Of a DNA stretch of 64,000 nt, positions 4,013 to 56,110 are shown one piece after another (the first letter of the stretch is position 1; each line of letters starts with the position of its first letter). The notes beneath the pieces are model-generated. The model searched no databases and was not told the DNA's origin. It worked only from the letters and a program-made list of their open reading frames with translations. Source of the DNA: Liolophura sinensis (taxonomy: Eukaryota > Mollusca > Polyplacophora > Chitonida > Chitonidae); contig NC_088300.1 in the NCBI RefSeq assembly GCF_032854445.1, positions 38,966,458 through 39,030,457 of the forward strand. Direction: 5' to 3'. The position numbers and the translations under genes were made by a program.

Positions 4013-4737
4013 TATTCAGTACATGTAGTATGGAGTGCAACACAAAACACACGTCAAGAAAATAAAGAGCCCTTTTTTGTTTTTTTCAGGCTGGAGTTAC
4101 ATGGCCATAAACGCCGGCTGACATGGGAAGCAACTCCGCGAAGTATTCATGATGGTGTGCAATCAGCTATCATGAGCAGTGACTGTCTTGTGTTTGACAC
4201 TAATATAGCCCAGCTTTTCGCCGATCATGGAAACCTGGGAATAAATGTGACCATATTTATGTACCCCTAGCATCTTACGAGCTGAGATAATTAGTGCTGG
4301 TATTACCTACAGGGCTCGTGGAAGGAAGTGACTGTGGCAGGCTTTGTTCTGGGACAAACCTTTCAATAGCCTTGTATTGTTATAGATGCTTCTTAACCTC
4401 CAGCTTTGAAAATATCCTGATTTTCATTGGTGTATGTACTTTTGTTTTTATAGAGTGCTGAAATTCAGCAAAGATTGAGATTTCATGATCAGCTCCTGTA
4501 CAGAGTTAAGGCACAGTTAGTGCTTGATATAAACAGCTGTATCACAGTGGTCGTACATGTAAATCCCCTTGTGCCGTGAACATATCAGCCAAAGTATACC
4601 CATGAGGTATCACACAGGATTGCCAGATGTACCAAGTGGTGTTTCTCCAAGTGGTTGTATGTGAGTTTGGTCTAGAACTCCACTCTGGTTTAGCATATAC
4701 TGACAGTACACAAGCCAGTACATGTTTTCTACCCATA
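4013..4737. other. Intergenic, nothing recognised
   Basis: No supported exon or repeat. Weak similarity to the neighbouring minisatellite unit begins near 4690. Confidence 0.4.
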
Positions 4738-6730
4738 GTGACAGTAATCCAGTGTCTGTATGTCTACTTGGCAGTCAGACCTGACAGACAGTGAGAGTGT
4801 ACCAGTGCCTGTATGTCTACATGAGAATCAGACCTGACACACAGTGGCAGTATACCAATACCTGTATGTCTACATGAGAATCAGACCTGACACACAGTGA
4901 CAGTATATCAGTACCTGTATGTCTACATGAGAATCAGACCTGACACACAGTGACAGTATATCAGTACCTGTATGTCTACATGAGAATCAGACCTGACACA
5001 CAGTGACAGTATACCAGTACCTGTATGTCTACATGAGAATCAGACCTGACACACAGTGACAGTATACCAGTACCTGCATGTCTACATGAGAATCAGACCT
5101 GACACACAGTGACAGTATATCAGTACCTGTATGTCTACATGACAATCAGACCTGACACACAGCAGCAGTATATCAGTACCTGTATGTCTACATGAGAATC
5201 AGACCTGACACACAGTGACAGTATACCAGTACCTGTATGTCTACATGAGAATCAGACCTGACACACAGTGACAGTATATCAGTACCTGTATGTCTACATG
5301 AGAATCAGACCTGACACACAGCAGCAGTATATCAGTACCTGTATGTCTGCATGAGAGTCAGACCTGACACACAGTGACAGTATATCAGTACCTGTATGTC
5401 TACATGAGAGTCAGACCTAACACATTGACAGTGTACCAGTACCTGTATGTCTACATGAGAATCAGGCCTGACACACAGTGACAGTATATCAGTACCTGTA
5501 TGTCTACATGAGAGTCAGACCTAACACAGTGAAAGTAATCCAGTACCTGTATGTCTACATGAGAATCAGACCTGACACACTGACGGTATAGTGACAGTAC
5601 CTGTATGTCTACATGAGAATCAGTCCTGACAGACAGTGACAGTATATCAGTACCTGTATGTCTACATGAGAGTCAGACCTGACACACAGTGACAGTATAT
5701 CAGTACCTGTATGTCTGCATGAGAGTCAGACCTGACACACACTGACAGTATATCAGTACCTGTATGTCTACATGAGAATCAGACCTGACACACAGTGACA
5801 GTATACCAGTACCTGCATGTCTACATGAGAATCAGACCTGACACACAGTGACAGTATATCAGTACCTGTATGTCTACATGAGAATCAGACCTGACACACA
5901 GTGACAGTATACCAGTACCTGCATGTCTGCATGAGAATCAGACCTGACACACAGTGACAGTATACCAGTACCTGCATGTCTACATGAGAATCAGACCTGA
6001 CACACAGTGACAGTATACCAGTACCTGCATGTCTACATGAGAATCAGACCTGACACACAGTGACAGTATACCAGTACCTGTATGTCTACATGAGAATCAG
6101 ATCTAACACATTGACAGTGTACCAGTACCTGTATGTCTGCATGAGAATCAGACCTGACACACAGTGACAGTATACCAGTATCTGTATGTCTGCATGAGAA
6201 TCAGACCTGACACACAGTGACAGTATACCAGTACCTGTATGTCTACATGAGAATCAGACCTGACACACAGTGACAGTATACCAGTACCTGTATGTCTACA
6301 TGAGAATCAGACCTGACACACAGTGACAGTATACCAGTACCTGCATGTCTGCATGAGAATCAGACCTGACACACAGTGACAGTATACCAGTACCTGCATG
6401 TCTACATGAGAATCAGACCTGACACACAGTGACAGTATACCAGTACCTGCATGTCTACATGAGAATCAGACCTGACACACAGTGACAGTATACCAGTACC
6501 TGTATGTCTACATGAGAATCAGATCTAACACATTGACAGTGTACCAGTACCTGTATGTCTACATGAGAATCAGACCTGACACACAGTGACAGTATGCCAG
6601 TATCTGTATGTCTGCATGAGAATCAGACCTGACACACAGTGACAGTATACCAGTACCTGTATGTCTACATGCGAGTCTGACCTGACACACAGCGACAGAA
6701 TATCAAAACCTGTATTTCTAAATGTAAATC
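4738..6730. repeat. 53-bp minisatellite array, about 37 copies
   Basis: Head-to-tail copies of a 53-bp unit, for example CCTGTATGTCTACATGAGAA followed by TCAGACCTGACACACAGTGA and CAGTATATCAGTA. Units differ by recurring substitutions (TGTATG/TGCATG, CTACAT/CTGCAT) and some are shortened. The first and last units are diverged. A 422-bp offset links two multi-unit blocks (see findings). There are no spacers, so it is not a CRISPR array. Confidence 0.95.
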
Positions 6731-9727
6731 AAGTCACAGGTATAAACCTCACGATTGGTTCAAGAAACATTGTCCAGAGCTTGTCCAGACCACATCAGTA
6801 AATGTGGATGAATCCTATGTCATGTTTGCTTTTCTCGTGCTGGGAGTGTAGAGAGCCGAACATGTACGGCAGCCTAAAGGCTTAATCTATTGCTTTTAAT
6901 ATTAGAAACAATGTTGAGTTATTTCCAAGGACCATGATAGGCAAAGCGCCATCTGGTGGTGTCTTGGGAAGATAGCTCAGTGATAAGGCCCTCCCTTAGA
7001 CAGCATCTACATGGTGCTGTACTTACATGGGGCCATAGCTCAGTATTGTTTCTCAGTAGTGGGGCATTTTCTTAGTGCTTAATGAGAGCTGTCTTTGACA
7101 TAAACATTCACTTTGTATAAATCATTTTGGTTGTTAGATGAATGTTGATAGAGTATCATTTTCTTGTTGTTCACAAAGATCATACCAACATATTGTAGTT
7201 TATTCCGTGAAAGTGACAGAAAACATCTGGCTGCATTTCCCTGTTTACTCAGCCAGAAACCAGTGAGTCTTTGTCTTACCAAATAAGCTGTTAATATTGT
7301 CAAAATGTATATATATTTATGGCTTATGGTTTTATCACATTTATATCATTTGTTATATAATGAAACAAAAACAAAGTCTGTGAAAGCTGATTGTGCATGC
7401 TTTTAGTATTATGATTGCTGTATATGATGTACATAATCAAGGTGTTCGGGTTTGTAATGGTAAGCTTCATTGAGCTGCTGAACTCAATGACGTGGAAAAT
7501 AATTGCTTATCAAAACAAAGCTCAGGTACAATGTACATATGTACAAATTGAGTTAGGTATTTGCCCGGGTTTGTGATGACGTGGCAGTGTAGAGGTATAT
7601 GCGCTTGTATATAGGTGTATGGTTGTTTTAACCAAGTGAACCAACTCTTGCATCAAAGATCGTTTTATCTTCAGAAAAACCTTTGGCTTACGAGTTAGTT
7701 TCATTCGAGCCTTCTTCCCACGTGTTCAATGTTATGACATGTGCATTCATTGCTAAACTTCCCCGTGAAGTATTGAAACAGTTTGTAAACTACATGTGTT
7801 TGTTCATATGTGCTCTTTTATGTTTCAATATTCGATATTTGTGTCAGTGCTCAGAGACAAAAAAAAAATGTATTATTGAATATGAAACACCTGTGATTCA
7901 TATGATATAATTAAGCTTGAGAGCGTATGCTTACGTGAAAAAAAAATTCAATTTCACGCCTAGTAACTGCCTCCTAATTACCTACTGGCTAACTAGTTTT
8001 GAAACAGTACTCTTAGCCTGTCAGCCGTTGACCTAATCAAACTTTTGCTCCAAATTTTATACTTATTTGTGTAAATCACGCGACGACTAAAGCCGGGGGC
8101 ATAAGACGGGCTTTGAGCAGATAAAAGTAGCTTGGGTCTAAGTAGTGTACTCTGTTTTTCATTCCTGTCTTTTGGGGCAGACTAGTAGAGTAGTACTCAT
8201 GGAGTATTTTCGGATCACTATTCTCGTGTTATCCAACATAAAAACAAGGTTTCATATGTCATAATTTAGTATGACTGTTCGCGAACAATGTTTTTACTCC
8301 CCATTTCTCTCCGATTGAAACAAGAACGATAATAAAACGATCGCGGTGAAGAGGCAGGAAGTGTTGTCAGAAAATACAAAAATTGTGTAAGCCATTGTTT
8401 CTAAAATACTTTATACACGTTCATTCTGTCCAGATTGTGCACACTGTCGTTCTAATCAAACAGCTGAAACAATGTTATTGATGAACGCTGGTGAAGTAGT
8501 TTCGCGCGAGAACACCAGTGGTTAGGCTAAGCTTACGTTCAACGTACATGCTTCAAAGGTCAAGCTTGTCTAGTGGTGGCAGTGATGTAAAGGAAGCGTA
8601 GAGCGGCCCATACGCTGTAATTAGGTTATTAAGATCAACATCATTACACGTACATGGATGCAAGTCCTGATTCTTTACATGTATACATGCATGTCTAAAA
8701 AAAATTGGCAGTGTGGTATATTCCTGATCAATTTATGTTCCACAAAATGCCTACCTCTCAAGCTTGTCCGAAAAATGAGTCAAATAGCTGGATAAGCCAT
8801 TCAGGAGAATCGATGAAAACGTCTGCTTTATTTAGACACTTGTTTTTATCCAAGTATGGTTTGAAATGTGACTGCACGGGGAGGTATGTCACGTACCTGC
8901 AGAAATGGTGAGATTTTGATGACTATATAACCGCTCAGACTCGTGAAATTTTCTTGAGCAAAAACAGTGTAAAACAGTAAATGAGTGCATGCCGAAATAA
9001 ATAAATGTATACCTCCTCCTGTTTCTGATGAGGGTCAGCTGTGTTTTTTAACTGGGGACATTGGTAGAGATCCCTTTTTGGTCCCGAATCACAAACTTTG
9101 TCTCCGTTATTTCCATTTAATCTCGACATTAAGTTTCATACTGTGTTCTGTTACACTGTAAATGTAGTACTGGGTGGGAATTTTTGTACCATTACGTCGT
9201 TAGTTAATTCTACACCCTCGAGTTTTCATATTTATTTCAACTAACCCAGTAGATCTCTACTTTACGATTGCATACTTTACATGCACCGTGACCATCATTA
9301 TTCGTGCTAGGGACAAACTTTAGGATGGGTTGTTTTTAATAGTTCGTCAGTACCAGTATTATGTCATTACAGTTTCATCATCAGTATAATATGTTTTCTT
9401 ATCTTTAATTGTACTAACGCTTCTTATAATTTTGTGAACAAAAACGAGTCACTGCATGAAAAGCATCAGCGATTGAGAAGCAGGTAACATATTTGAAGTA
9501 AAAAAAAGCAGTAAGTTTAAAAACCATGCAAGACTGGCCTATAATATTATTCCTTTTATATAAATATGTATCTACGTTCATTTTTAACTGTAATAGGAGT
9601 ATGTATGGGAGTAAAATGGTCTAAATGTAAATCTAAATTTCAGCTGACTTCAAACATAGTTCAGGGTCATGTAGGCATTACCAGTACATCAGTTCAATGT
9701 TATACAGCCTTGTCACATTTTTCAGTT
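6731..9727. other. Intergenic, nothing recognised
   Basis: About 3 kb of AT-rich sequence with short unsupported open frames (for example 7683-7910 and 8705-8911). No splice-supported exon, RNA gene or clear repeat was found. Confidence 0.4.
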
Positions 9728-9927
9728 NNNNNNNNNNNNNNNNNNNNNNNNNNNNNNNNNNNNNNNNNNNNNNNNNNNNNNNNNNNNNNNNNNNNNNNNN
9801 NNNNNNNNNNNNNNNNNNNNNNNNNNNNNNNNNNNNNNNNNNNNNNNNNNNNNNNNNNNNNNNNNNNNNNNNNNNNNNNNNNNNNNNNNNNNNNNNNNNN
9901 NNNNNNNNNNNNNNNNNNNNNNNNNNN
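9728..9927. other. Assembly gap (200 N)
   Basis: Exactly 200 N. The 14 bases on its left (9714-9727) and right (9928-9941) are identical: CACATTTTTCAGTT. Two contigs probably overlap here, so the true gap may be zero or negative. Open frames reading across the N run are meaningless. Confidence 0.98.
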
Positions 9928-18141: not shown

Positions 18142-18193
18142 ATGATGTGGAGTATGTTTATCCTCGTAATACTGTCCGCGTGTATGGTTCAAG
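18142..18193 (+). CDS. Hint gene exon 1 (signal peptide)
   Basis: Starts at ATGATG with A at -3 and encodes the hydrophobic leader MMWSMFILVILSACMVQ. It ends CAAG|GTAAGTG in phase 1, a strong donor. The second Met could also serve as the start. Confidence 0.85.
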
Positions 18194-21100
18194 GTAAGTG
18201 GGGTTGTTTGTTACCTATTGACATTTGTTGATATTGCTAAGGGTATAGCCGTGTTGATGTGTTAAGTGATGCAGATGTTCAAGTACATTTGTTCCATATT
18301 GAAAGTTGAGTATTTTCGGTTGTTTTTAGTATTGATTGATAGTTGTGTAACTGTAAATTGGGTGGTCAGCGTTATGGGTAAAGCAAAGAGGAGTGCCCCG
18401 GGAAACTACCTGTCTTTGGCAAGTTACTGATAATCTCCATACAGGCATGAACACCATACTGTTAACAAGGAAGTTATTGGCGAACAGAGACTGCGCAAGG
18501 AGTCACACAAGCGTCGTGCTTGTATTGTCACCGAGGCCCCACAAACGGCCAGGGAGTGTTTCTTTTATTTGTTACATCTGGCTTAGCACATCAATGACTG
18601 TGTTTCGTTTGAAACACAATTTGTCATAAAATTGCAATTTATAATGATTATGGCTTGTTGTAATACATTATTGCAAATAACATTCACTAAGAATGTCAAT
18701 CATGGCTGCAATTTACATCTCCCACAGTGACCTTTTTTGTAATAACGTATTGTATTCATATAGATGCTATTCATTCTGTCATCATGCCTAAATGGTAAAT
18801 GTAATAACTAAGCATAACGACAAAAGCACTCATAAAAGTATATATGTCACAAATTCTGTTACTATACATAGTTTTACATGTTAGGTCTTATACAATTTGT
18901 AATGACGCAATTTTTTTTATAACTTTACAAAAAATACTGTTAGGGTTTGTGATGTTTACTGTTAGAAAGCAAGGTGTTTACTGAGTTCACTGTGAACATG
19001 CACAATGCTTCAAAACTACAAATAACGTTTGATTACATCGAAATTGAAAAGAAAATATGTGGGTCTATTAACCACGTGCAGGTATTCATCAAAATATATA
19101 TTTCCACTTGATTTTTATTTATTATATACCTACTAGTTTTATTATTATGGTGTCAAGGTTTTTTTAAGGGTAATTTTCACATGTGTTTTGATGGTCGGGT
19201 ATGTTTCATTTCATCATGACATTACTTTAAAACTTGCATCTTTTGATTCATTTGTTTGGGCAAACTCGTTCGCTTACATTCTATTATTGGTGAATTGCCT
19301 GCAGATTCAGAATGTACGCATAATACATGTATTTAACAGGGGTGATAATTAAGGGGTGAGAATGTGTCAAAGAATAAAGCATCAAGGCAAGGTATATCCA
19401 CATTGTCGTCTATTATACAAAGAATAAAGCATCAAGGCCAGGTATTTCCACACTTTCGCCTAGTATACAAAGAATAAAGCATCGAGGCACAGTATATCCA
19501 CACTTTCGTCTATTATACAAAGAATAAAGCATCGAGGCACAGTATATCCACACTTTCTTCTAGTATATAAAGAATAAAGCATCAAGACACAGAATATCCA
19601 CACCTTCGTCTATTATACAAAGAATAAAGCATCGAGGCACAGTATATCCACACTTTCGTCTATTATACAGAGAATAAGCATCAAGGCACAGAATATCCAC
19701 ACTTTCGTCTATTATACAAAGAATAAAGCATCGAGGCACAGAATATCCACACTTTCGTCTATTATACAGAGAATAAGCATCAAGGCACAGAATATCCACA
19801 CTTTCGTCTATTATACAAAGAATAAAGCATCTAGGCACAGAATATCCACACTTTCGTCTATTATACAAAGATGAGCATCAAGGCACAGAATATCCACAGT
19901 TTCGTCTAGTATAACAAGAATAAAGCATCGAGGCACAGTATATCCACACTTTCGTCTATTATACAAAGAATAAAGCATCTAGGCACAGTATATCCACACT
20001 TTCGTCTATTATACAAAAAGTTTTGGGCATGTTGTTTCAAACAAGCCATTTAATTCATCAAATGGTGTTTAACGCCATACTCCAGGAATTTTTACGAATG
20101 AAATGTCGATGGGTGCACTCCAAAAATCAACCTGTTCATTTCAACAGTAAGTCTGTTTGAGTAATGCTAGAATGTATTCTGCTATTGTAACAGATTATTC
20201 TGTTAAATATAACACATGTATTCTAGTAGTCCAACACAAAGATTCTATTGAACTAATAGAATATTATGTTGAATATAACACAGTATTATGTTATAGTAAC
20301 AAAATACATTCTAGCATCACTCATACAACGGACTATCTGTTAAAATTAACCGATTCATTTTTTGAGTGTGGAAGAAACCATAGTGGCTAGGTTATCTTTC
20401 GGCAAGTCAGTGACGAATTTTGCCTCATGCGTCGTTGACAGCTCATCGCCACCAAATTTCCACAAACGGTGAAAGGGGAATCTGTTCCTTGTTCCTTGTT
20501 CAACACCATTGCATACAAACCAAGCACCAGTAGACAATTACATATTTGCATCTGTTCTCAAGGCGGCCATAGCGCCTGTTAATATGGTGTTGTTCAGATA
20601 ATGGCGATGCTAAGCAGTTAAGTAGTAAGTAGTTCACACTAACATACTTACTTTGAAGACACGACAAACTGCTGCAAAAGAGCTCCATGACGCCTAAAGA
20701 GGGTACCTAATTTATTTTAGTTTAAGCACTGGGGTGAGTCAGATGAAAGCAACTTAATAAAAAAGAATATGTACATCAAGCAGAATACAAAATGATGATG
20801 CGTCACTCCGGTGTCAGATACCATTAAACATTTGATCTTACAGTGGTTAAAGGGGCCTCCGTGGCTCAGTTGGTTAGCGCGCTAGCGCAGCGTAATGACC
20901 CAGGAGTCTCTTATCAATGCGGTCGCTGTGAGTTCAAGTCCAGCTCATGCTGGCTTCCTCTCCGGCCGTACGTGGGAAGGTCTGGCAACAACTTGCGGAT
21001 GGTCTGGGGTTTCCCCCAAGCTCTGCGCCCATCATAATGCTGGCGGCCGTGGTGTTAGTGAAATATTCTTGAGTACGGCGTAAAACACCAATCAAATAAA

Positions 21101-21561
21101 TAAATATATAAATAAATTTATTCAGTGAGCGACGTTTCGGTATAGAAAATAATGCCGCTATCAAGTATAAAGATCAATTAGTGACAGTGCTAAGAAATTA
21201 GTGACAAGAGAGAATTCAATTTACTGAAAGGCTGTAGGCTACCAGGATGGTGGGTAGAGTATCTGCTACGTAAGTAGCATATCTGGGATTGCATAATTTT
21301 ATTTTCATATTTCATATTGAGTCATTTCCATGACATTAAAATTGGAAACATTAGTAAAATCCAGATTGGGACTGAGCGTAAGAGGAAGTGACTTCGGTAT
21401 GTCGTTCCAGTGAGGCAGCTAACATATTAGCTTTATGTCCAGCCTGCTACAAAGAAACATGAACGTGCTATAACCGAAATATTATGCTAAACAACCTTAA
21501 ACTTGAAGAAAACAAAGAAAGCTATCTATACTGTATGTCATGCATAACGTATATACGTATA

Positions 21562-21638
<77 letters not shown>

Positions 21639-24600
21639 ATATATATAAAGAATGTTTATAGGACCGTATATATCCATATTTAATGTATGCATCAATCATT
21701 TAAAGACTATATCCCCAAGCAGGGGCCTCAAGATAGGAGCCTATTTTATATTGGAGTTGAAAATTTGCTTTTATACATGCGTCACGGCCGAGATTTCCGC
21801 TGTAATTTGTTAACCGGCCTTCGATCCAGATGGCTCTATACCTGAATTGATCATGAACGTATATGTCAGTCACAATTACAAACTGCCAAGCGCATAATTA
21901 ACATATCTTAGATAATAGCAGCTGCGGACTAGACTTTGTGTCTGGCTCATGAGTAATCAGGTCCAGTGTCTGCAGACGTTTGTCTCGCGTATGTCTGACC
22001 TTTACAATATAAATGCATCTATTCATTTTGTAACATTTCACACAGAACTGTTGTCATATGCATATCCTTTGTCATTTTTTTTTGCCCAGGAAAGCTTTCA
22101 TGTGAAAAAACGTGGAAGTGACATAGTTTTGGTGAAGGAGGATTATGAGCTTACGGTATGTATTTATTTATTGATTTGATTGGTGTTTTACGCCGTACTC
22201 AAGAATATTTCACTTATACAACGGCGGCCAGCATTATGGTGGGTGGAAACCGGGCACAGCCCAGGGGAAACCCACGATCATCTGCAGGTTGCTGCAGACC
22301 TTCCCACTTACGGCTTACGGTATGTACGATGTGAACTTGTGAGTATGTTAACTCTTTCACTGAATCTTACTAAACCCCATCAAAAATGAAACATGCCGGT
22401 TGTTCATCTATGATATCCAGATTTCTACGCCCTGGGCATACGTCAAATAGAAGCAGGTAAGAAACGGAAAGATGCCATGTATGTTTCAGACTTTGTATAT
22501 ACCAATAACCGGAACATGTACAGTAAACTTTCCTAGAAAAAATATCGTCATCTGAACATTTACCAATTGATAATCAACATTTCCCCAGGAAAAATGTTTT
22601 TGTGGAACTGATCTGGCTAAAGAGACGTTCACAGCTTTGTTCAGTATATATTTATCGTACACCTTCTGTATGCAATATATCAAACAAAGAATACTGGCAG
22701 TACGAGAAGACTAAATTCGACGCAGACATGTAACCTAGCACAAAAATCCCTTGGCATGAGACGCTCCTAACGTTAAGCCTGTTTTGTAATTGCAGTAAAA
22801 CGAGCCTTATCGTTTGAACATCTGTAAAGAGTAATAATTGTGAGCGAAACTATGTAGGAAATAGTGGCGATAACAGTAAAACGTTGTACACTGCATTGCG
22901 ATCAGATATTTTTCTGAGCTGGGACTGACTGACGACAAAGAACTGTGGTAGGTCGACAATTGTTCAGGCAATTGACTTATTAGTGGTTCTGGGGTGCGTA
23001 TCCTCCGGCAAACCCTCTTTTATACAACATGAGCTTGTGTAGTGAAATCGTCCTACTGAATTAGTTCTCACTTTTCCCAGATTGGTGATCACTACATCTC
23101 AACTATTTATCGTTCAATGTGTCCTGTCTACATACATTTATCCCATAAATGTTCATTTTTCCTGGTAATAAAGGCATGACATATCGTTTTGATATGCACC
23201 ACGTGTACTATAAATTCCGACATTTTGATTGGTCCGTGTATCTTTTCATTCATCAATCGACCAATCAAAGTTACAACTCGGCTGTACAGGCACCTCCTTT
23301 TTTTACAACTTTTTCTTGTCTTCTGCAAAATGTCAACATCGCTGACTTTCGACCAGGAGATACCTTAAAAATTGACAAAAAAAGGAAGCGCGTGACAAGA
23401 GATAATCGAAACAATGAGGAAATCCTCGGCATTGACTACGAAATAGAGCTATTGCCACGAAGGCTAAGTAATGGCACCGGTATTTGGCGGTCCCATATTG
23501 GGTGGTGTCTTTCACGTGCATGTTCATTACAATCATGAAGCTTCTCAAACCACAATGTGTTTGTCTTATGAATCGTCATCCGAATCTTCACAAGAACACT
23601 AGCTGATGTCCTAATCATAATTAGCCGTTACAATTCTGTAGATTGTTTCGCTTGTTCAACCTTCGTTAAGTTAAACTGTCGGTTGTTTCTTGGAATTTGT
23701 CTAGTTTTAGACAGTAGTTCTTTCTGTAGTAAAATGTAATATTCTTGTTATAAATATTAACGTATTGAACGATATATTGTATAAGGCAAAACTTTGACAT
23801 GTCTGTGTATAAAACATTTATGTAAATAAATTTTGTCTGTGCTATATTATTCTCTGCCATGTACTTGTTGCTTACTGATGACGCTTCACTTGACGTATAT
23901 ATGTGATATCACTACGCGCTTAGACGTCGGGCAATTTCCGAAAAGTTTAAAACTCGAGTAGTAGTTTTTCATTTGTTCCGAGCAATTTGTTCATTTGTGA
24001 TATTTAACAGTTTAACTGGATCAGTTTAACGGTAACTGATCCATAAATCAGCCTTGGGTGAAAATATATGTGAAGCACTGTGAGAAATCAAAGTACAGGC
24101 ATGGAGATCATTTCAATCTGATAATATCAAATTTGTCATGATTGTAGGTATCGTTTTCGCACGTTTTTTATTCTTAATGTCTTTTTAATCATTTAATTGC
24201 TATGTATTAATATTTTTTGGAAACGCAATACTCATTTGCTTTGTCAGGTAAAGCTGATGTTTTCTGTTGCAAACAGCATGAACCAGTGTCACACGGGGTT
24301 AAGGAGTCATGTGACTGTCGATGCCGGAAGCTTCACTCCAGTGAAGACTGGAAATGCTGCCGGTGTGTATGGACTGACGAGGTTTGTTTCCCTGGTGACG
24401 CGCACGTGCAGCTTCCATCTGGGCACTCAATCCCTATGTCTGCCCTCAAAGTCGGCCAGAAAGTGTTGACGGGTAAGGCACACATTTACGACATGCACAA
24501 TTCAACTACATATCTTTGTATCAGCACATTTCAGACAAAAGAACAAAGAATAGTACGAAGAACAATTTGGACAAGCCTGACTACCAAAACATGGTGAACA

Positions 24601-27600
24601 AGCGGTTCACCTGCCCACGACGGCGACCTGAACATGCCGTAGACATAAGCATGCACAGCGACGACGTAAGCAGGGTGACAACGTGAACACTATGAAGACG
24701 TGAACACTGTGACGACGTGAGTACGGCGATGACGTGAGTACGGCGATGACGTGAACACTGTGACGGACGTGAGTGCGGTGACGACTTGGGCACGGTGACA
24801 ACGTGAACACGATGACAACTTGAGCACGGTGTAGACCTTAACACGCTTAGCGACCTATAACAAGCTGGCGAATTGAACAAAATAGAAACAGTCAATCGAT
24901 TTTATTCTAAAGGTACAAATTTCATAGATGTGAACAGTCACTCGAGTTTATTCAAAAGTTATAAATTTTATGAATGTGAACAGTCAGTCTAGTGTGTTGA
25001 AACACCTTCGTACGAAATACAGTTTGTCCCATATCGTTTCGACGAGACTGAACTGGTATCGTTGGTTCTCTTTCTCTCAGACAGAAGCATTATCTGTAAG
25101 AATGTGTGTACCTATAAGGCTGTGTATGTCAATGGTGGCAAGGTGATATATGTTTGCCTAGAACTACAGCACGTCTCCCGTGGCCTGGACACAGATTATT
25201 CAGTGACAAACCAGAGACAACGCATCAGCGCCCGCAAGGCAACTAACTAGTCAGAACACGTTATATTACCATGAGATCAATCTTAAGTTTGGAGTATTCG
25301 GCCATGATTCTCTTCATTTGTCATATTGATGCAAATAATATTTCTTTAAATAAAACAATTGATATCTGTGGGAAATTATGTGATAAATGGAACGACAAAT
25401 GAGGAAAACTCATCGTAAAACGATCTAAAATAACACTGTGTCCCCCGTATCTGAAGACAAGGGTGCCAAAAATAACTGTTAAACGTGTTCTATTTCGCGA
25501 GTGTACATTAAGTCTGTGCGACAGGCAATCCGGAATGAGACGGAAGAATGTTTCACTGTTTCTAATACGCAGCTCTCACGCAAGTCACATGCATTTACTG
25601 AATCAATTCATACTCGACTTTTCTCTACACGTATTAACCGCTCACATACTTGAAATCTCTTGCAGAGTTGATTTAGACCCTCTGCTAAAATCTGCCACTG
25701 TCTGTTGTGAAGACAAATGGTCATATACACCTATCCTTCCTTGCTGCTTTGAGTGTCAGATCGAGTCGTGAATTTACTCGGTTGTGATCAACATATCGTT
25801 GGAAATATAAATACGTGCCCATTATGTATCGTAGAAAATATGAATACGTGCCCGTTATGTATCGTGGGAAAAATAAATGCGTACGCATTATGTATAGTAA
25901 GGAATATAAATACGTGCCCATTATGTATCGTAGGAAATATAAATACGTGCCCATTATGTAGCGTAGGAAATATAAATACGTGCCCATTATGTAGCGTAGG
26001 AAATATAAATGCGTGCCCATTGTTTATCAAGTTGATATATTCTGACTGTTCCACCAGTTTAAGAGGCCTTTCTATATATTATGTGACAGCTTCGCAGTAT
26101 CGCCAACTGTACTGAACTTCATGAGGTTTATTCGATATGATGTATATGCTTTGTTGACAGTGAATGAGGACGGAACGCCTAGCTACACGGAAGTGTTGAC
26201 TTTTCTTAAGCGTCATCCACGGACTGACGCTGTGTACTGGAATATCAGGACAGACAAGTCCAACATACGCATGACGCCACGTCATATTGTCTTCACATCC
26301 GCGTCAAACGACACGGCCACAAGGCAACCCAGGTAACAAATAATCGCCCATTATTATGGCTCTGGTAAATTTCTCTTCCTCTCATTGGAGTACAGTACGA
26401 CGTATGGGTTTCAGCAATTCATGTTATTATACCTCATAGGGCTATTCTCCGTTTCCATTGGTCAAGAGACGGTCACATGATATTCTGCAAAACATGTACA
26501 ACGATCACGCGCCCAAGGAATGCAACGTCACGTTCACAAAGTAATATTCCACGTTCACTAGGCAAAGTCCAACGAGCTCGTGCTAATAGTCAACGATCAT
26601 GTGCGTTTATTCCGCGGCAGTTATCTCCCTTTGTTCGCTCTCCGATGGCATATCATTATGAGCAATAGTCAGCTCTTGCCAAGTGATATTCAATATCACT
26701 TTTCTCGAGCTGGCAATTCCTCATATCCCATCACACATTATGCACTATCTGTATAATGTTGCACTCACTAGTGACTTCGTCTGTGCAACAAATGCCCTGT
26801 ACCACACTAAACCGATAGAGGACATCCCGCTACCTCGCTATCTCGAATACGGGGCGAGGTAACGAGATAGCGCAGAGAGGTAGCGAAGTAGCGATGTAAG
26901 CCAGCGAGGTAGTGAGACTAACATGACGAGGTAGCGAAATTAACATAATCTCGCTACCTCGCTTCCTCGATCAAGTCAAAAGTCAAAATCTCCGAGCCTG
27001 TTCTCAAAAATCTCAAAGCCGACATAGATTAGCCCACCTATACGAATGATCCAGCCGTTGAAATTTTAAATCGAGGAGCCATACTGACAGTCGTCATATT
27101 TCATAATCAAACCGCCGGCAAGTTACGTGCTGGCGATTCCAAAAATGAAGAGTACTCTTGTCAAGGCATTTTGTTGTCAGCACTCTATATTAAAACTCGA
27201 ACTTTGCCGAAAGTTAGAATTCAAAACATGGCGCACGTTTTTTTTTTTTTTTTATTTATTTTTTTTTTTTTGTTTTTTTTTCCCACGTTAACGTGTTTTT
27301 CTCAAAGTTGGATGTTTTAGCGACTCAGCTCACATCATACTAATGAACGGGCTTAAGGTTTCCTGTTGACATATATAGACGGCTGTCTAGGGCTGTCCAT
27401 GCCAAGTACAGCTCTACCCGATTTGGCTCCACCGAGTGAAATAATCTACTATTTTTAACAGAAAGTCTGTGTGTCTGTGTGATGCTAGAATGAATTCTGT
27501 TATTATAACATAATACTCTCATATTCAGTATGATATCCTGCTAGTTCAGTACCACCTTTACGTTGAATTAATATATATGTATTCAACACAATATCCTGAT

Positions 27601-30389
27601 ATAATAACAGAATACATTCTAGCTTTCTAACAAACTTTGTTAAAATTACCAGAATAATTTTTTGACAATACACAAGTTGCATTCACAGGATACGTTTCGG
27701 AGAGAGACCGTTTCTTTATCTTGTATTGGACCGCTCAGGCTGAATTGTTCAGACAATGCGGTTCACTATAAGCCCTGAACAACGAGGCCGCGAGTTCGAA
27801 TTCAGTTTTCGCTTGTTCGGCTGTGGCCTTACGTTACCAAGTTGCGACAGGTCAGCAGGTGCGTTGGATATCTCCGGGGACCAAAGCGGTAAAACTCATA
27901 AATGAACTATTAACCTACACTATATATGTCACAAAACAGCAATCAAATATATAAATGAAGATATATTCCTTTCTTTAAGATTCGCTCATGACGTTTCGGT
28001 TGGGGATTACCTCTTCAGTGCCAGCTCATCCAACATCACTTCATCGAAAGTCCTGGAAATCACCAGTCAAATTATGACAGGTACATTTAATTGATATTCA
28101 AGAGTGTATTTCAAGAGTGGAGTGCACCAAAGTGAACATTTTTACCATACTTTGTAATCTATTTCGAGTTAGTGAAGCATTCATCAATGATTTTACACGA
28201 ATTTCCTCGTGCACCACCATCGTCGGTCGGATAGTTCAATCACCACCTGTCTTTTGTTGAATGGATTGTTATAGCATATAGAATATATCATATTTTGCTC
28301 ATGCTGGCTTCTTTTCCGGTCGTACGTGTGAAGGTCTGTCAGCAACTTGTGGATGTTCATGAGTTTCCCCCGGGTTCTGCCCGGTTGCCCCCTACCATAA
28401 TGCTAGCCGCCGCCGTATAAGTGAAATATTCTTGAGTTCGGCGTAAAACACCAATCACATAAATAAAATAAAAATCATATTATTTTCAAATCGTAACAAA
28501 TCTCGTGGGACAGAGGGAGTATATTATGGAGATGTGGAGAAAAAGGCAGGAACAAATTACTATCTAGTCAGGATTTTAAAATACACAAATGCGTAAACAC
28601 AAGTGCGCGGAGAGTGCTGAGATCTCGGATGATGTAATCTAGAAAACTTCATGGGCAATTTTATTTCGTTTTGCGCCAGAAGAATACGTTAGTAACAGTC
28701 TACTTAAGAAAACATCATGCATCCAATTTACACTTGCACCATTTCACAATTCGATCAGCTTTTCAAACAGTTTAATGGAGAATGACTTCCGGTGTCGCGG
28801 AACATCTAAAACTTTCCACAAAAATATTCCCACCCTCAAACCACGAAGCTACAAGTCGGTGTCACATGTGTACAGAGAAAAATCTTCGTAAAACTTACGG
28901 AAAGCATTTTCTAATCTCTACTTGCCCTATACCATTTAGAGATGGGGACTTAAATAGGTGGACTGCTAACGCCACTGACTGTCAAACCAGCAATCACGTA
29001 ATGCTTAAGCAGGAGTCGTAATGATACTAGCACGCTCCTCAGTGAGTCATATCACGAGGCCACTCAAGGAGGCTGTACAAATTGTGAACAAATTCTACAG
29101 CTTCATTTAAGGTGGTGCGTAGGGCAAAATTTAGGTGTCCTACAACAACAAGAATATTGTCTCTGTGCATAATTTGTTGGTTTCGGTGTCAAAGTGGGAG
29201 TTTTGTGCCGCAGAAGATATGCATATACCCCTGCTGTCATTTTTGATACACAAGCTGAGATAGTTAAGTAAATGAAAAAGACAATAGTTTACACGCGGGG
29301 CATCCGTCAGAATTAAAAAAAAAGCAAACATAAAATAACCGTGGAAATTTTTGAAAACTGATTTATTTCACAATTAATTTGCTCTTGCCTGTTGCAGATG
29401 AAAAGTCTCCCACCGATGGTCACACCTTAAGATATTTATATACATATTCGTCGATAATCATAATGGGGGTGGGTAATGGTGATTAAGACATTTGTCTCAC
29501 AATCGTTAGAATAGACAAAGTGTGGGTTCAATCCCGTCCCCCAGGAGGGACCTTGGTGACAATAAGTGGTTGACACAGTCGAACCTTTGTTGAGTGTGAT
29601 AAGCATAGCTGAACATCACACGTGGGAATAAATGTCTCTCAGTGACTTGGCAAGATGTCGGTCGTTTACCCCAGGCACTTCGACTTTTTACATTCATAAA
29701 AATGACATTCATGGAACAGCTGTTTTTCTAGAGTGTCCAGATGACATTGTTTTTCAAATTTTTACAACACTGTGGCTTTTTTATGCTTAATTAAAAAAAG
29801 AAATCTTATCACATTGAGAATATACACAACATACATGTATACGAAAAATGAGTCAGATGTACCTAATTAGATTGCTAAGACAGTAACTTGGAGTAAAATG
29901 TTGTGTAGATGGTATATATCCATTGTCATTAAGTGTTGTAAATTAATGTATCCTAGTTGTGGTTTGGGGGAAATCGGGATTCATGCTTAGTATCAGAAAT
30001 TTCCTAAACTAATGATATGGTGCCATGGGGAAATACATAATGCTTGCTTTGGCGCATTGTCTGGTTTTATGTTTCTGTTTTATATTTTTGGCTTAGGTGT
30101 ATACGTTCCCCTGACGGAGACTGGTACTTTGGTTGTTGACGAACTACTGGCGTCCTGCTACTCGTCCGTAGACCATTACATTGCACATGCATTCGTTACC
30201 CCGATTCGGTGGTTTCCGTCTTTGTTCCGATTTCACGGAGAGGATTATGGGATGCCCGGGTATGTCTCCTTCATGAAGTGGCTGGCACATAAGATCCTTC
30301 CATCGACTTATCAGGGTCGGTATGGACAGAAGAAAAGCGGTGGAGAATTAACATTTACTGGGGCGCACTTTATGAGTTTGGATTTATGA
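18142..30389 (+). CDS. Secreted Hedgehog-type Hint autoprocessing protein, no Hedge domain
   Basis: Five exons join at GT/AG sites with consistent phase: 18142-18193, 24248-24472, 26161-26332, 27980-28080 and 30097-30389. Together they give 843 nt, 280 residues. Residues 1-17 form a signal peptide (MMWSMFILVILSACMVQ). Residues 18-63 are a short segment with eight cysteines (24, 25, 39, 41, 43, 54, 55, 57). The Hint domain starts at Cys64 (CFPGDAHVQL), the expected nucleophile. Thr131-x-x-His134 (MTPRH) and Cys204 in LLASCYSSV match the Hedgehog catalytic residues. Residues 222-280 resemble the C-terminal adduct-recognition region only weakly. Known Hint domains cut before the Cys via a thioester; Hedgehog then adds cholesterol. 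Here Lys109 replaces the Asp at Hint position 46. No Hedge domain was found, even in the 6-kb first intron. It is a hog-like lineage gene rather than the hedgehog orthologue. Confidence 0.9.
19371..20025. repeat. 50-bp tandem repeat, about 13 copies
   Basis: Unit near AGAATAAAGCATCAAGGCAC followed by AGTATATCCACACTTTCGTC and TATTATACAA. It lies in intron 1 of the Hint gene. The long open frame on the minus strand here (19560-19868) is the repeat itself. Confidence 0.95.
20139..20350. mobile_element. Palindromic MITE-like element, copy 1
   Basis: Imperfect inverted repeats: ATGCTAGAATGTATTCTGCT on the left and TACATTCTAGCATCACTCAT on the right. The ends are TCAACAGTAAGTCTG and CTATCTGTTAAAATT, and the centre is AT-rich. 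There is no coding capacity. A related element lies at 27453-27648. Located in Hint intron 1. Confidence 0.7.
20852..21110 (+). mobile_element. tRNA-derived SINE, family 2, full-length copy
   Basis: Starts GGGGCCTCCGTGGCTCAGTT (A-box-like TGGCTCAGTTGG). B-box-like GAGTTCAAGTCC lies near 20931. It continues with GGCCGTACGTGGGAAGGTCT, a TTTCCCCC block and CATCATAATGCTGG, and ends GAGTACGGCGTAAAACACCA then (AAAT)n. It is the reference copy for the other members in the window. No clear target-site duplication was seen. Confidence 0.88.
21550..21647. repeat. (TA)n microsatellite
   Basis: Nearly pure TA repeat in intron 1 of the Hint gene. Confidence 0.97.
22170..22315 (-). mobile_element. SINE family 2, minus copy
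   Basis: Plus-strand text TTGGTGTTTTACGCCGTACT, AAGAATATTTCACTTATACA, GCATTATGGTGGGTGGAAAC and CAGACCTTCCCACTTACGG is the reverse complement of the 3' two thirds of the family 2 SINE. It is in Hint intron 1 and lacks the tRNA head. Confidence 0.85.
24248..24472 (+). CDS. Hint gene exon 2 (Cys-rich segment and Hint start)
   Basis: Acceptor CATTTGCTTTGTCAG| before GTAAAGCTG, donor ACGG|GTAAGG, phase 1 at both ends, 225 nt. It encodes the eight-cysteine segment and the Hint start CFPGDAHVQLPSGHSIPMSA with the following LKVGQKVLT. Confidence 0.9.
24655..24850. repeat. Degenerate ~17-18-bp tandem repeat in intron 2
   Basis: Repeats of the type GTGACGACGTGAACACT, with several TGACGTGA sites between 24728 and 24765. 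Open frames on the minus strand rich in Ser/His/Arg are products of this repeat. Confidence 0.75.
24895..25000. repeat. Two-copy ~60-bp repeat in intron 2
   Basis: GTGAACAGTCACTCGAGTTT and GTGAACAGTCAGTCTAGTGT begin related downstream copies; TTTATTC plus a TATAAATTT-like stretch recurs between them. Confidence 0.6.
25795..26030. repeat. 33-bp tandem repeat, about 7 copies
   Basis: Unit GGAAATATAAATACGTGCCC then ATTATGTATCGTA. A length divisible by three leaves open frames on both strands; neither is supported as a gene. In Hint intron 2. Confidence 0.9.
26161..26332 (+). CDS. Hint gene exon 3 (Thr-x-x-His block)
   Basis: Acceptor TTTGTTGACAG| and donor CCCAG|GTAACA, 172 nt, phase 1 in and 2 out. 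It encodes SYTEVLTFLKRHPRTD, then MTPRHIVFTSASND. The Lys of FLKR stands at the Hedgehog cholesterol-activating Asp position. Confidence 0.9.
26825..26970. repeat. GAGGTAGCGA foldback/low-complexity block
   Basis: CGCTACCTCGCTATCTCG near 26829 pairs with CGAGATAGCG...GAGGTAGCG downstream. The decamer GAGGTAGCGA and relatives recur several times, and another inverted copy lies near 26950. In Hint intron 3. Confidence 0.7.
27241..27282. repeat. Poly-T tract
   Basis: A long, slightly interrupted T run, possibly an A-tail of a minus-strand insertion; no body was recognised. Confidence 0.7.
27453..27648. mobile_element. Palindromic MITE-like element, copy 2
   Basis: Ends TTTTTAACAGAAAGTCTGTG and, inverted, GTAATTTTAACAAAGTTTGT. 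Inner inverted repeats are ATGCTAGAATGAATTCTGTT and AACAGAATACATTCTAGC. It matches copy 1 at 20139-20350. In Hint intron 3; noncoding. Confidence 0.7.
27980..28080 (+). CDS. Hint gene exon 4
   Basis: Acceptor CCTTTCTTTAAG|, donor ACAG|GTACAT, 101 nt, phase 2 in and 1 out. It encodes FAHDVSVGDYLFSAS and SSKVLEITSQIM, the expected Hint strand block (VxVGDYL) and the following beta segment. Confidence 0.85.
28297..28465 (+). mobile_element. SINE family 2, 5'-truncated copy
   Basis: Starts GCTCATGCTGGCTTCTTTTC and ends GAGTTCGGCGTAAAACACCA then ATAAATAAA. In Hint intron 4. Confidence 0.85.
29465..29543 (+). mobile_element. tRNA-like head of a SINE or tRNA pseudogene
   Basis: About 79 nt with A-box-like TGGTGATTAAGA and B-box GGGTTCAATCCC. 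The ends GGGGG and CCCCC can pair. The rest of the acceptor stem is mismatched, so a working tRNA is unlikely. Following sequence to about 29710 may be the SINE body. In Hint intron 4. Confidence 0.45.
30097..30389 (+). CDS. Hint gene exon 5 (Ser-Cys-Tyr block and C-terminus)
   Basis: Acceptor TTTTTGGCTTAG|, 97 codons to TGA. It encodes PLTETGTLVVDELLASCYSS and AHAFVTPIRW, the most Hedgehog-like stretch, then a ~59-residue C-terminal tail. Confidence 0.92.
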
Positions 30390-34000: not shown

Positions 34001-35990
34001 TCCATTTGACTTTGCAGTGTCTTCGCGCATAATTAGTGGGATCACAAAATGGGATCAGCTGGTTTTGCAGTGTCTTTACGCCTGACCAATACTATTGCAG
34101 GCTGGAATCCACCTGATTTTGCTGTGTCTTTACGCCTGACTATGGAGATCCCAGACAAGAATCCAGCTGGTTTTAATGACGCATGACCGTCTAACCAGCA
34201 AGATCCCAGTCTAAAACCCAACTGTTAATTACGACTCAGCATGGAGATCCCAGACAAGAATGCAGCTGGTTTTAATGACACATGACCGCCTAACCAGTAA
34301 GATGGCAGTCTAAAACCGAACTGTTAATTACGACTGACTATGGAAATCCAAGACAAGAATCCAGCTGGTTTTAATGACACATGACCGTCTAACCAATAAG
34401 ATCGCAGTTTAAAACCCAATTGTTAATTACAACTGACCATTGAGACCCCAGACAAGAATCCAGCTGGTTTTGATGCCACATTATCGTCTAACCAGTAAGA
34501 TGGCAGTCTAAAACCCAACTGTTAATTACGACTGAGCATGGAGATCCCAGACAAGAATGCAGCTGGTTTTAATGACACATGACCGTCTAACCAGTAAGAT
34601 CGTAGTCTAAACCCAACTGTTAATTACGACCGACCATGGAGATCCCAGACAAGAATCCAGCTGGTTTTAATAACGCATGACCGTCTAACCAGTAAGATCG
34701 CAGTCTAAAACCCAACTGTTAATTACGACTGAGCATGGAGATCCCAGACAAGAATGCAGCTGGTTTTAATGACACATGACCGTCTAACCAGTAAGATCGT
34801 AGTCTAAACCCAACTGTTAATTACGACCGACCATTGAGATCCCAGACAAGAATCCAGCTGGTTTTAATAACGCATGACCGTCTAACCAGTAAGATGGCAG
34901 TTTAAAACCCAACTGTTAATTACGACTGACCATGGATATCCCAGACAAGAATGCAGCTGGTTTTAATGACACATGACCGTCTAACCAGTAAGATGGCAGT
35001 CTAAAACCCAACTGTTAATTACGACTGACCATGGATATCCCAGACAAGAATGCAGCTGGTTTTAATGACACATGACCGTCTAACCAATAAGATCGCAGTT
35101 TAAAACCCAATTGTTAATTACAACTGACCATTGAGACCCCAGACAAGAATCCAGCTGGTTTAAATGACACATGACCGTCTAACCAATAAGATGACAGTCT
35201 AAAACCCAACTGTTAATTACGACTGACTATGGAAATCCAAGACAAGAATCCAGCTGGTTTTGATGCCACATTACTGTCTAACCAGTAAGATCGCAGTCTA
35301 AAACCCAACTGTAGATCCCAGACAAGGAGATGGAGATCCCAGACAAGAATCCAGCTTGTTTTGATGCCACATTATCGTCTAACTAGTAAGATCGCAGTCT
35401 AAAACCCAACTGTTAATTACGACTGACCATGGAGATCCCAGACAAGAATCCAGCTGGTTTTGATGCCACATTATCGTCTAACCAGTAAGATGGCAGTCTA
35501 AAACCCAACTGTTAATTACGACTGACCATGGATATCCCAGACAAGAATGCAGCTGGTTTTAATGACACATGACCGTCTAACCAGTAAGATGGCAGTCTAA
35601 AACCCAACTGTTAATTACGACTGAGCATGGAGATCCCAGACAAGAATGCAGCTGGTTTTAATGACACATGACCGTCTAACCAGTAAGATCGTAGTCTAAA
35701 CCCAACTGTTAATTACGACTGAGCATGGAGATCCCAGACAAGAATGCAGCTGGTTTTAATGACACATGACCGTCTAACCAGTAAGATGGCAGTCTAAAAC
35801 CCAACTGTTAATTACGACTGACCATGGAGATCCCAGACAAGAATGCAGCTGGTTTTAATGACACATGACCGTCTAACCAGTAAGATGGCAGTCTAAACCC
35901 AACTGTTAATTACGACCGACCATTGAGATCACAGCCATGAATCCTGCTTGTTTTGCTGCCAATAAGATCATAGACTAGAATCACTCAGTT
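34001..35990. repeat. 99-bp tandem array, about 19 copies
   Basis: Unit includes GGAGATCCCAGACAAGAATC, CAGCTGGTTTTAATGACACA, TGACCGTCTAACCAGTAAGA and CCCAACTGTTAATTACGACT. Units from 34001 to 34150 and at the right end are diverged. Variant types recur, for example GATCGTAGTCTAAACCC near 34600, 34798 and 35688. Confidence 0.93.
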
Positions 35991-41396: not shown

Positions 41397-43528
41397 CTGT
41401 GAAACAAGAAAAGAGAAACATCAGTTAAATCTAAAACACATAGACTATAATCAGATGCACATACATCAGAAACCCTGATACTGCGGGCTATATGCTGGAA
41501 TTGTCCCGCTTATCATATCTGCATTGATAAAGAATTTACCAAAGCTGCACACTCATCGTGGTCTTATGACTGAAAAATTGTTAGAACAACAACATTAAAC
41601 CCCAAGCATATATACAAACCAAAGCTGCACTAAATTCCCAATTCGTGGTTCGCATTTAAAGCTAAGGAATCTTTATCCGAGAAAACTCACAGTAAGTAAC
41701 AGATTGGTGTGATACCATAGAATTAGGGGAACGTTAACAACGGAATTAAAAGATCCTTTGGCATGCATGTGGAGAAGTCTTTAAGGCGATCCGTCCATAT
41801 GGTGTTGTGGTTGTTCCAGATGCAGTTACATGGGAACATTACGTATTCCACAAAACTATGGTAATACATGTATGTGTATATACTTACTGACAGCCTCTCC
41901 TCCATTCCCCACACTGAGGGGACCTCCCAGGATACCTGCGTCCCTCAGATCCGCCAGGTAGTCCATGAGCTCCCCAGGGGGCAGGTTGACGCCCGTGTGG
42001 GTGCAGGAACCACTAACATCCTGGTGGCACTGGTTGGTCGTATTACTGAACAAATATCCGGGCGGACACTCGGCATACTGAGCTCCACCACCCTCACACT
42101 CAAAATACCCGAAACAGGTGTTCGGATCAGCCACAAACATTGTGGTGGCTCCGTTGCAGGGGCCTGGAAAACAAGAAATATCAACACTACAGTACAACAA
42201 GCGCAATCACTGCACGACTGCCTGGGGGTATCAAGTGTTCTCAGCTCTCGTAAAGAATAACATAAGGTTATAGTGGGCTGCGGTCCCATGGGTAGCGGAT
42301 GAACATTCACAAATATCAAAGTGCCAATACATTGACCCGTCAGATTAGAGAGCAACACAGGAACAACACGAAGAGCAGCGCAATCAGTTGAGTCTAAAAA
42401 TTCTTAAAGCTTTAGAGTATCTACTCAATTAACATACAAACTTCGGGATGCAGACAACCCAGCGAGAAGTGGATTCGAACTCCAGATTTAATTGATGAAA
42501 CGTTTGTCATTTCAAATAGCACAGCCACTCAGTCGGCAAGGCCCCAATATAATTCTCATTCCTTGCATCAAAATGAGGCCTCGTTCGTATAGAAAAGTTT
42601 TCAGTGTCGATGTGTTTCTAACAGTGTATATAACAAGCTCTAAGAATATCTAACAGGGATAAAATAAGCTTGGTATGTACACAAAGCCGTCAATTTAGTT
42701 TTCGCTGCTCAAATGTGGGAGAAAAATCCGTATATATGTTACTAGTATAGAAACTGGAACGCAGTCAAATCATTCCAAAATCTAATCTTTATGTGTGATC
42801 AGAGAACTTGTTGGGTCACGACTTATTTTCGACCGCAATTAAATGTATTCAAAACTTAAATTCATGCGTATGTATACATAATCCAGAATGTTAAGTGATG
42901 TAAACTCATTTAACCATTCCCGATTCCTTCGTTGACGCTACATTCAAATCACTCTGGCTTTGGTTTTATTATCTCGGTTGGTTTTATTTCGAATATATGT
43001 ATGCAAGAAACACAAAACTTTACAATGCGCCTTTATACAGGTTATACAGGTTCAACAGTGATGCAAAATATTATATAGCCCAAGGATCATTCGTTGTTTT
43101 CTGTCTGTCGTTTCAATGTCGTCAATGTCAGGCGGATGTGACGAACTGATGCTCAGGCTAGATGCTATGAAACAATCTGTTGAACAGGAATAAATTTTAT
43201 TCTCTGAACTGAAAATAACTCCAGGCTGAAAAGAACTATATGGAAAATATATAAGAAGTCAAATATATATGCCAACGTAGAATCATAAATGAGCGGCAAG
43301 TTCACTTACTCCATGGGCAGAAGTCGCCATCCGGCAGCGCACATACGCCTGTGGCATTAGAGAACCACTGCCTGCCTGGGCATTTGCTGGGGGTAGCGAC
43401 GATTTGGCCTGTGGAGTTGTCACAGTTCACATATGTACCGCAGTTGTCATCCAGAGGACCGAAGCCCGTTGTAGTGACGATGAATTCATTTCGATAAAAT
43501 GCATCTTCGCAGCCTTCTAGGTACAGCG
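41296..43528 (-). CDS. Chitin-binding (CBM14) protein, 3' three exons; 5' end unresolved
   Basis: Three minus-strand exons, 43528-43310, 42163-41888 and 41396-41296, join in phase 1 throughout and end at TAG. The first encodes a peritrophin-A/CBM14 domain with cysteine spacing x5, x13, x12, x7 for the last five Cys (NCGTYVNC, KCPGRQWF, CALPDGDFC). The second encodes another with spacing x13, x5, x9, x12, x7 (CNGATTMFVADPNTCFGYFE) plus a ~40-residue linker. The third ends in C-x16-C-x10-C-x-C. CBM14 domains bind chitin in peritrophic matrix, egg and shell proteins; this one is presumably extracellular. No start codon or signal peptide lies next to exon 1. The incoming phase fits the mucin exon at 51692, or unseen exons. 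A shell-matrix role is only a guess. Confidence 0.85.
41563..41610 (+). mobile_element. SINE family 1 tail fragment
   Basis: TCTTATGACTGAAAAATTGT and ACATTAAACCCCAAGCATA match the 3' tail of family 1. It lies in the last intron of the CBM14 gene. Confidence 0.6.
41888..42163 (-). CDS. CBM14 gene exon, second CBM14 domain
   Basis: Acceptor TTTCTTGTTTTCCAG|, donor GCTGTCA|GTAAGT, 276 nt, phase 1 in and out. It contains a complete six-cysteine CBM14 domain ending in CHQDVSGSC. A linker, PPGELMDYLADLRDAGILGG, follows. Confidence 0.9.
42443..42545 (-). mobile_element. tRNA-like SINE head
   Basis: Minus strand reads GGGGCCTTGCCGACTGAGTG and later B-box GAGTTCGAATCC. The long spacing resembles a Ser/Leu-type tRNA. 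The 3' acceptor strand does not pair, so this is a pseudogene or SINE head, in a CBM14 gene intron. Confidence 0.4.
43310..43528 (-). CDS. CBM14 gene exon, first CBM14 domain
   Basis: Acceptor TTATAAATTTCAG|, donor CCATGGA|GTAAGT, 219 nt, phase 1 in and out. All six cysteines of the domain are present, from LYLEGCEDAFYRNEF to DGDFCPW. Confidence 0.88.
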
Positions 43529-51765: not shown

Positions 51766-51796
<31 letters not shown>

Positions 51797-55294: not shown

Positions 55295-56110
55295 CATTCA
55301 GTTTTTGTGACACCTCACCTTTTGTTTAATGTCTGGAGTGGACTCATTTACACTCATACCTCCCTGTTATGTATAAATATCCGGAATCGACGCACTTACG
55401 GTGATATCTCAAAAAAATTCAGTGTCCGGAGTAGACTCAGTTTCCGTGATATATCACTCGTTTAGAGATAACGCAGTTTACGTGATACATTACCATGTTT
55501 TATTGTGTGAACTTGGCTCAGATTATCTCAATTGACAGATCGTGTCATTCGTTACAAGAAGAGCACGTGATCAGGCGATTGTCTGGATTTGACTCAGTTT
55601 GCCTTTTGTTAAATGTCAATGTCCATTTAGCGCTATACCCCATTTCTTCGTAAAACTTAGCTTAACAGTTACCTGTTTAAGATACTTTCCGTGGTATCTC
55701 ATTGTTTTATTGGTCTGGAGTCGACTCCATTTCTGTGATACATCACTACGTTTAGTGAATCAACTTTTTGCTGTGATACCTCCTTATATCTAATTGTGTG
55801 TAGCATATATGACTCTTTTTTCGTGATGCCGCACAATGTCTTATACTGACATATCTGGAGTTGACTCAGTTTCCGTAAAAGTGCACTACGTCTGACTGTC
55901 TGGAGTGACGTCAGACAACCACACTTATCTTCTGTATTTGAATCAGTTCTTTAATATCGCACCATGTACAACTGTCCGGAATCGAGTTTTTGTCATATGT
56001 TATTGCCTGGATTCGACTCGGTTTACGCGATACTGCACTGTGTGTTATTGTCTGGAATAGACTCAGTTTTCGCGATATTGCTCCATGTATAACTATCTGG
56101 TCTATATGTT
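55295..56110. repeat. Degenerate ~45-bp tandem repeat
   Basis: Recurring phrases TGTCTGGAGTCGACTCAGTT, TCCGTGATA and CACTACGTTTA at roughly 43-50-bp spacing, much diverged. At least ten copies can be followed. Confidence 0.75.

Follow-up and report, generated by a model that had tools for sequence, protein, structure and literature searches.

A five-exon Hog gene in the Liolophura sinensis genome

The window analyzed here is a stretch of 64,000 nucleotides from the chiton Liolophura sinensis (contig NC_088300.1, positions 38,966,458 to 39,030,457), and its plus strand carries a gene, hereafter the window gene, whose predicted product joins a signal peptide and a short segment with eight cysteines to a Hog domain. 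Joined, the five exons give 843 nucleotides, which encode 280 residues and a stop codon uninterrupted by any internal stop (Table 1). The intron phases are 1, 1, 2, 1, which bears out the five exons in unbroken phase proposed in a first-pass annotation of this DNA. A chance open reading frame or a pseudogene was rejected on two grounds: 280 codons remain open across five exons, and the Pfam Hint model matches at 1.7e-44.

Splice sites were scored against consensus matrices (with the plus strand of the window as background). Donors 1 to 4 fall in the top 0.02, 0.56, 2.18, and 3.87% among 4087 GT sites, and acceptors 1 to 4 in the top 0.47, 2.09, 4.87, and 0.89% among 3597 AG sites. The sites are thus part excellent and part moderate. 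The first-pass annotation had called them strong; the exon 1 donor ranks first of the 4087.

Table 1. Exons and associated features of the window gene (positions are those of the window)
Feature	Positions	Strand	Basis
Exon 1: start codon and hydrophobic predicted signal peptide (MMWSMFILVILSACMVQ), phase-1 donor AAG/GTAAGT	18142..18193	+	Donor score, phase, hydrophobicity
Exon 2, first part: rest of Gly18 codon, then Lys19-Val63 (45 residues, eight Cys)	24248..24384	+	Acceptor in top 0.47%
Exon 2, second part: Hint motif A (CFPGDA) with the catalytic Cys64	24385..24472	+	Pfam, alignment
Exon 3: Hint core; Lys109 at the place of Drosophila D303; TPRH (Thr131, His134)	26161..26332	+	Alignment
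Exon 4: Hint core	27980..28080	+	Hint homology
Exon 5: SCY (Cys204), sterol-recognition-like region, H-P-R (His214, Pro219, Arg221), PGY for HWY, stop	30097..30389	+	Alignment
Polyadenylation signal AATAAA	30502..30507	+	Sequence

The joins of exons 2 to 5 are supported by homology, because the Hint match spans all four. Exon 1, which lacks homology support, is the least tested part of the gene model. Some exon must precede exon 2, since the open frame before it contains no ATG. Between 8,000 and 24,247 we found 10 candidate first exons running from an ATG to a phase-compatible donor (donor scoring 7 bits or more, length of 10 residues or more). Ranked by hydrophobic stretch, the top four are all alternative ATGs of exon 1. 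The furthest of these in frame lies at 18103, so that the start given for exon 1 is provisional. The signal peptide and its cleavage after Gly18, a plausible site, were judged by eye. Smaller tandem arrays lie within introns 1 and 2 (19368-20017, 24698-24829, and 25794-26028).

An error at the 5' end of the model, by which the true mRNA would start with a different exon, use a different acceptor, or contain additional exons and so have a different N-terminal part, is quite improbable. In favor of such an error, exon 1 was placed solely by its splice score, its phase, and its hydrophobicity, position 24277 offers an out-of-phase acceptor of 6.7 bits, and at a loose threshold of 4 bits a search for single exons in intron 1 gives six short phase-compatible ones of 9-31 residues. 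Against such an error stand the exon 1 donor, the best in the window, the lack of an ATG before exon 2, and the absence of any single phase-1/1 exon in intron 1 at 5.5 and 5.9 bits, the thresholds met by the annotated sites themselves. The first-pass annotation had named a Hedge or other domain hidden in this 6-kb intron as one finding that would overturn its model. We set such an exon aside as unlikely: every match to Hedge, the N-terminal signaling domain of hedgehog proteins, lies on another scaffold of the genome, C1, and the search for single exons in intron 1 turned up none that is domain-sized and in a compatible phase. At E 0.1, Pfam finds nothing in a 129-residue frame within the intron (23149-23538).

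A complete Hog domain with altered cholesterol-transfer residues

The Pfam Hint model (PF01079) matches residues 61-231 of the 280-residue protein at 1.7e-44 (score 152.4 bits, cut-off 29.7), in agreement with the earlier assignment to the Hedgehog class of Hint domains. The NCBIfam intein N-terminal model begins exactly at residue 64, at 15 bits, below its cut-off of 24.5. Matches in the PDB are to Sonic Hedgehog and Drosophila Hedgehog (7e2i, 3.4e-16; 6td6, 1.8e-12; 1at0, 5.8e-11). Judged by its sequence, the protein is of the Hog class: the Hog domain is complete (Hint plus sterol-recognition-like region), and Cys1, TxxH, and SCY are present.

We aligned four rows, comprising the window protein, the Liolophura and Drosophila Hedgehogs, and a fragment of Sonic Hedgehog. 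Cys1, Thr326, and His329 are invariant in all four, and Cys400 of SCY is found in each of the three rows that reach that far. In the first helix of the sterol region the window protein keeps His, Pro, and Arg, and has Val at the place of F377. The residues associated with cholesterol transfer differ. At position 303 the window protein has Lys109 where each of the three remaining rows has Asp, position -1 is Val63 vs Gly in both other rows that cover it, and HWY of the Liolophura Hedgehog aligns with PGY, in which the Tyr is kept. These three features, including the apparent loss of the cholesterol-activating Asp, are absent from the first-pass annotation. Because of them, the classical Hedgehog chemistry of a cut coupled to cholesterol addition is not expected.

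Published mutants indicate what such changes may do. D303A loses full cholesteroylation and keeps cleavage by dithiothreitol (DTT), DTT cleavage is more efficient in D303A, N, R, and E, and the role proposed for D303 is to guard against premature cleavage and hydrolysis; a base swap, D303H, is reported to keep and widen activity (PMC9163320). In zebrafish and Xenopus domains, D46A is described as blocking cholesterolysis and making thiolysis 2-6 fold faster (PMC13060885, preprint). For Sonic Hedgehog, mutants of the HWY motif (H433A and Y435A) are reported to yield no cholesteroylated product in vitro, and H374, F377, and R381 to be required in cells (PMC7242414). Taken with the residue states of the window protein, the behavior of the D303, D46, and H433 mutants makes sterol transfer unlikely and sterol-independent cleavage possible.

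The same evidence bears on the idea that the cut still attaches a sterol, or some other alcohol that resembles a lipid, to the short peptide's C-terminus, which would make the domain a lipid-tagging device with Lys in place of Asp. The protein keeps the Tyr of HWY as well as H-P-R in the first helix of the sterol region, activity survives the D303H swap (PMC9163320), and cholesterol addition by the Hedgehog-related Hog domains of C. elegans was stated to be unclear in 2008 (PMC2362128). Lys is, however, an improbable general base for a sterol hydroxyl, and the residue at -1 is Val where Hedgehogs have Gly. Two mutants also speak against tagging, D303A being without cholesterol activity (PMC9163320) and H433A losing activity in vitro (PMC7242414), and the window protein differs at both positions. 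We regard lipid tagging as decidedly unlikely.

Loss of enzymatic function is unlikely as well. In that case the uncut protein, secreted or retained, would act as a molecule of two parts with a structural or receptor-binding role. Such a loss would fit the changes at D303, Gly(-1), and two of the three HWY residues relative to the conserved hedgehog of the same genome, and the low identity of the Hog domain to the two Hedgehogs (57/199, or 28.6%, with that of its own genome, and 44/162, or 27.2%). At less than 30% identity, however, retention of Cys1, Thr, His, and SCY is difficult to explain without selection on the cut.

A second Hint locus in a genome with a true hedgehog

Across the genome (609,464,459 bases in 632 contigs), the Hint search gave three matches at E 0.001, at two loci, one on C1 and one in the window. 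The window protein minus its signal peptide gave five matches at E 10, at the identical two loci. Only the best candidates were scored in these searches (4 and 6), exon by exon, and divergent loci may escape. All three matches to the Hedge domain (PF01085) lie on C1, 5.6 to 15.5 kb before the C1 Hint, so the C1 locus is a hedgehog. The window gene is thus the sole apparent non-hedgehog Hint gene visible to these genome searches.

The C1 hedgehog keeps Asp at 303, Gly at -1, and HWY, and its Hog domain lies in one open frame (L001 1480-2190), whereas in the window gene three introns interrupt the Hog domain. A recent copy of the hedgehog was rejected as the origin of the window gene: Hog identity between the two is 28.6%, against 42.8% (71/166) between the Liolophura and Drosophila hedgehogs, and four Hog exons stand against one frame. 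A gene-family expansion was likewise set aside, as only two Hint loci appear at either E 0.001 or E 10 among the best candidates scored, a search that divergent loci may escape. A pattern search of viral contigs returned 16 and 220 pattern matches, and a relative was confirmed in none.

The cysteine-rich N-terminal segment

Residues 19-63 of the precursor contain eight Cys in the order CC-x13-CxCxC-x10-CCxC. The eight Cys of the first-pass annotation therefore stand, and its length of 46 residues corresponds to Gly18-Val63, one more than the 45 that would remain after cleavage behind Gly18. The 45-residue segment has an isoelectric point of 6.96 and a predicted monoisotopic mass of 5260.25 with four disulfides. 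The predicted mass is 5317.27 if Gly18 is retained and 5628.60 for a cholesteryl ester.

By itself, the Cys count is not beyond chance in the window. Among 10,711 open 45-codon segments, at least eight Cys are reached at five places, namely the exon 2 segment, one tandem repeat, two opposite a repetitive frame, and one ordinary place (17658, minus strand). Support for the Cys-rich stretch as coding comes from the exon and frame that it shares with Hint motif A, from the strong acceptor before it, with no alternative in-phase acceptor above 0.9 bits inside, and from its guanine-plus-cytosine (GC) content (0.496, vs 0.366 in intron 1). Against it, the out-of-phase acceptor at 24277, if paired with another first exon, would shorten the segment.

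No match to known disulfide-rich peptide families emerged from the searches made. In Pfam, the 63-residue N-terminal part matches no family at E up to 1, and a PDB sequence search with the 45 residues gave no match at E up to 10. A single-sequence AlphaFold model of the segment has three Cys-carrying strands at low confidence (predicted local distance difference test [pLDDT] 65.9, predicted template modeling score [pTM] 0.38), and Foldseek with this weak model returned 250 matches at E up to 10 and none at 0.001.

Proposed mechanism and significance

This analysis shows the gene model, the Hint domain, and the residue states. Building on them, we favor a reading that we hold tentatively, at close to an even chance, in which the window gene encodes a secreted Hog-class precursor that would release, independently of sterol, a soluble peptide without a lipid, about 45 residues long and with four disulfides. 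The signal peptide would be removed after Gly18, and the eight Cys of residues 19-63 would pair into four disulfides. The Hint domain would then convert the Val63-Cys64 bond to a thioester by way of Cys64, Thr131, and His134. Water or a small thiol, rather than cholesterol, would most likely resolve this thioester, because the Asp that in Hedgehog restrains the thioester step and activates cholesterol is Lys109 and HWY is PGY. The product would be the free peptide. Release by Hint self-cleavage is plausible from the sequence, and cleavage without sterol is most likely if the published mutants are a guide.

Several observations weigh against release of this kind. Efficient release does not follow from losing the Asp, because in the absence of usable sterol, as in D46A, the N-terminal part of Sonic Hedgehog is reported to be retained in the cell and degraded (PMC13060885, preprint). 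Among the mutants compared here, D303R comes nearest to the Lys109 state, and D303K is not one of them. Some sterol contact may be retained by the window protein, because H-P-R and the Tyr of HWY are kept and Y435A kills cholesteroylation. The predicted fold of the 45-residue segment is of low confidence. By analogy with inteins, Val at -1 would be expected to slow the step that forms the thioester.

A broader proposal, which we consider possible though doubtful, is that an animal Hog domain uncoupled from sterol transfer could serve as a built-in, protease-free cutter that frees a soluble disulfide-rich peptide for signaling or defense. If cleavage without sterol is true, Hog domains would include general peptide-release devices. 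For the question of cholesterol addition, called unclear in 2008 for the Hedgehog-related Hog domains of C. elegans (PMC2362128), the chiton gene offers a clean test case, in which a lone non-hedgehog Hog gene with Lys for Asp stands beside an Asp-keeping hedgehog in its own genome. Its N-terminal part is small enough for synthesis and for detection by mass spectrometry.

Other features of the window

On the minus strand, an open frame at 41856-42206 contains a Peritrophin-A chitin-binding domain (CBM_14, 3.5e-8) and is probably one exon of a gene for a secreted protein that binds chitin. A 339-residue frame on the same strand (51657-52676) has, by eye, a stretch resembling a signal peptide close to its start and a tail rich in Thr, with a sub-threshold Pfam match only, and may be part of a mucin-like matrix protein. 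Large tandem arrays occupy 4737-6731 (53-base units), 34130-35954 (99), and 57819-60008 (61), the last coinciding with a region of strong GC skew (0.247 over 56001-60000). Positions 9728-9927 are 200 consecutive N, presumably an assembly gap. Rfam gave no match on the window at gathering thresholds.

Comparison with known Hog proteins

The window gene and the C1 hedgehog (C1:76379419-76395620) have in common the Hint and sterol-recognition regions, Cys1, TxxH, SCY, and H-P-R. The hedgehog differs in its Hedge exons, its G/C junction, Asp at 303, HWY, and a Hog domain in one open frame. The window gene is not a hedgehog proper, as no Pfam match, and thus no Hedge (HH_signal) domain, was found in its 63-residue N-terminal part. 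In the Enop, Qua, Wart, and Ground hogs of nematodes, the Hog domain is described as standing behind other secreted N-termini, which often contain Cys (PMC2362128), whereas the N-terminal part of the window protein matches no Pfam family at the threshold given above.

Lophohog is a lophotrochozoan family of Hog proteins that, like the product of the window gene, lack Hedge; it is recorded from Lottia, Capitella, and one gene of the chiton Acanthochitona crinita (PMC5103448, PMC9695228), and is said to carry a unique N-terminal domain. In A. crinita, a developmental-stage library is reported to contain one transcribed Hedgehog-related gene near Lophohog members (PMC5103448). One expressed gene there parallels the one non-hedgehog Hint gene seen in the Liolophura searches, and the window gene may be its ortholog.

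The titles and abstract openings searched in the literature contain no mollusc example of the architecture, which does not exclude a description in print. The first-pass annotation had likewise called the architecture unfamiliar, a claim weakened by the 'Short-hog' genes listed in 2008 for nematodes of the Enoplea (Buerglin 2008, PMC2362128). The predicted N-terminal peptides of these genes, from Trichinella and Xiphinema, have 34 (Ts Xhog3), 15 (XC Shog1), and 25 (XC Shog2) residues, and many of the nematode N-termini of limited conservation are said to contain conserved Cys (PMC2362128). As in the window gene, a very short N-terminal peptide is followed by a Hog domain with no Hedge, and Ts Xhog3 is described as keeping the Hedgehog-type K and L motifs without the extra nematode Cys pair (PMC2362128). 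The window gene belongs to a different phylum and has 45 residues with eight Cys, and the comparison is one of published descriptions rather than of N-terminal sequence or D303 state. With a segment of 45 residues separating Cys64 from the predicted signal peptide, it has the Short-hog layout, a likeness that need not reflect common descent. Because Short-hog N-termini and the Lophohog family have already been published, the window gene is a variant within the Hog proteins with short N-termini and not a new class.

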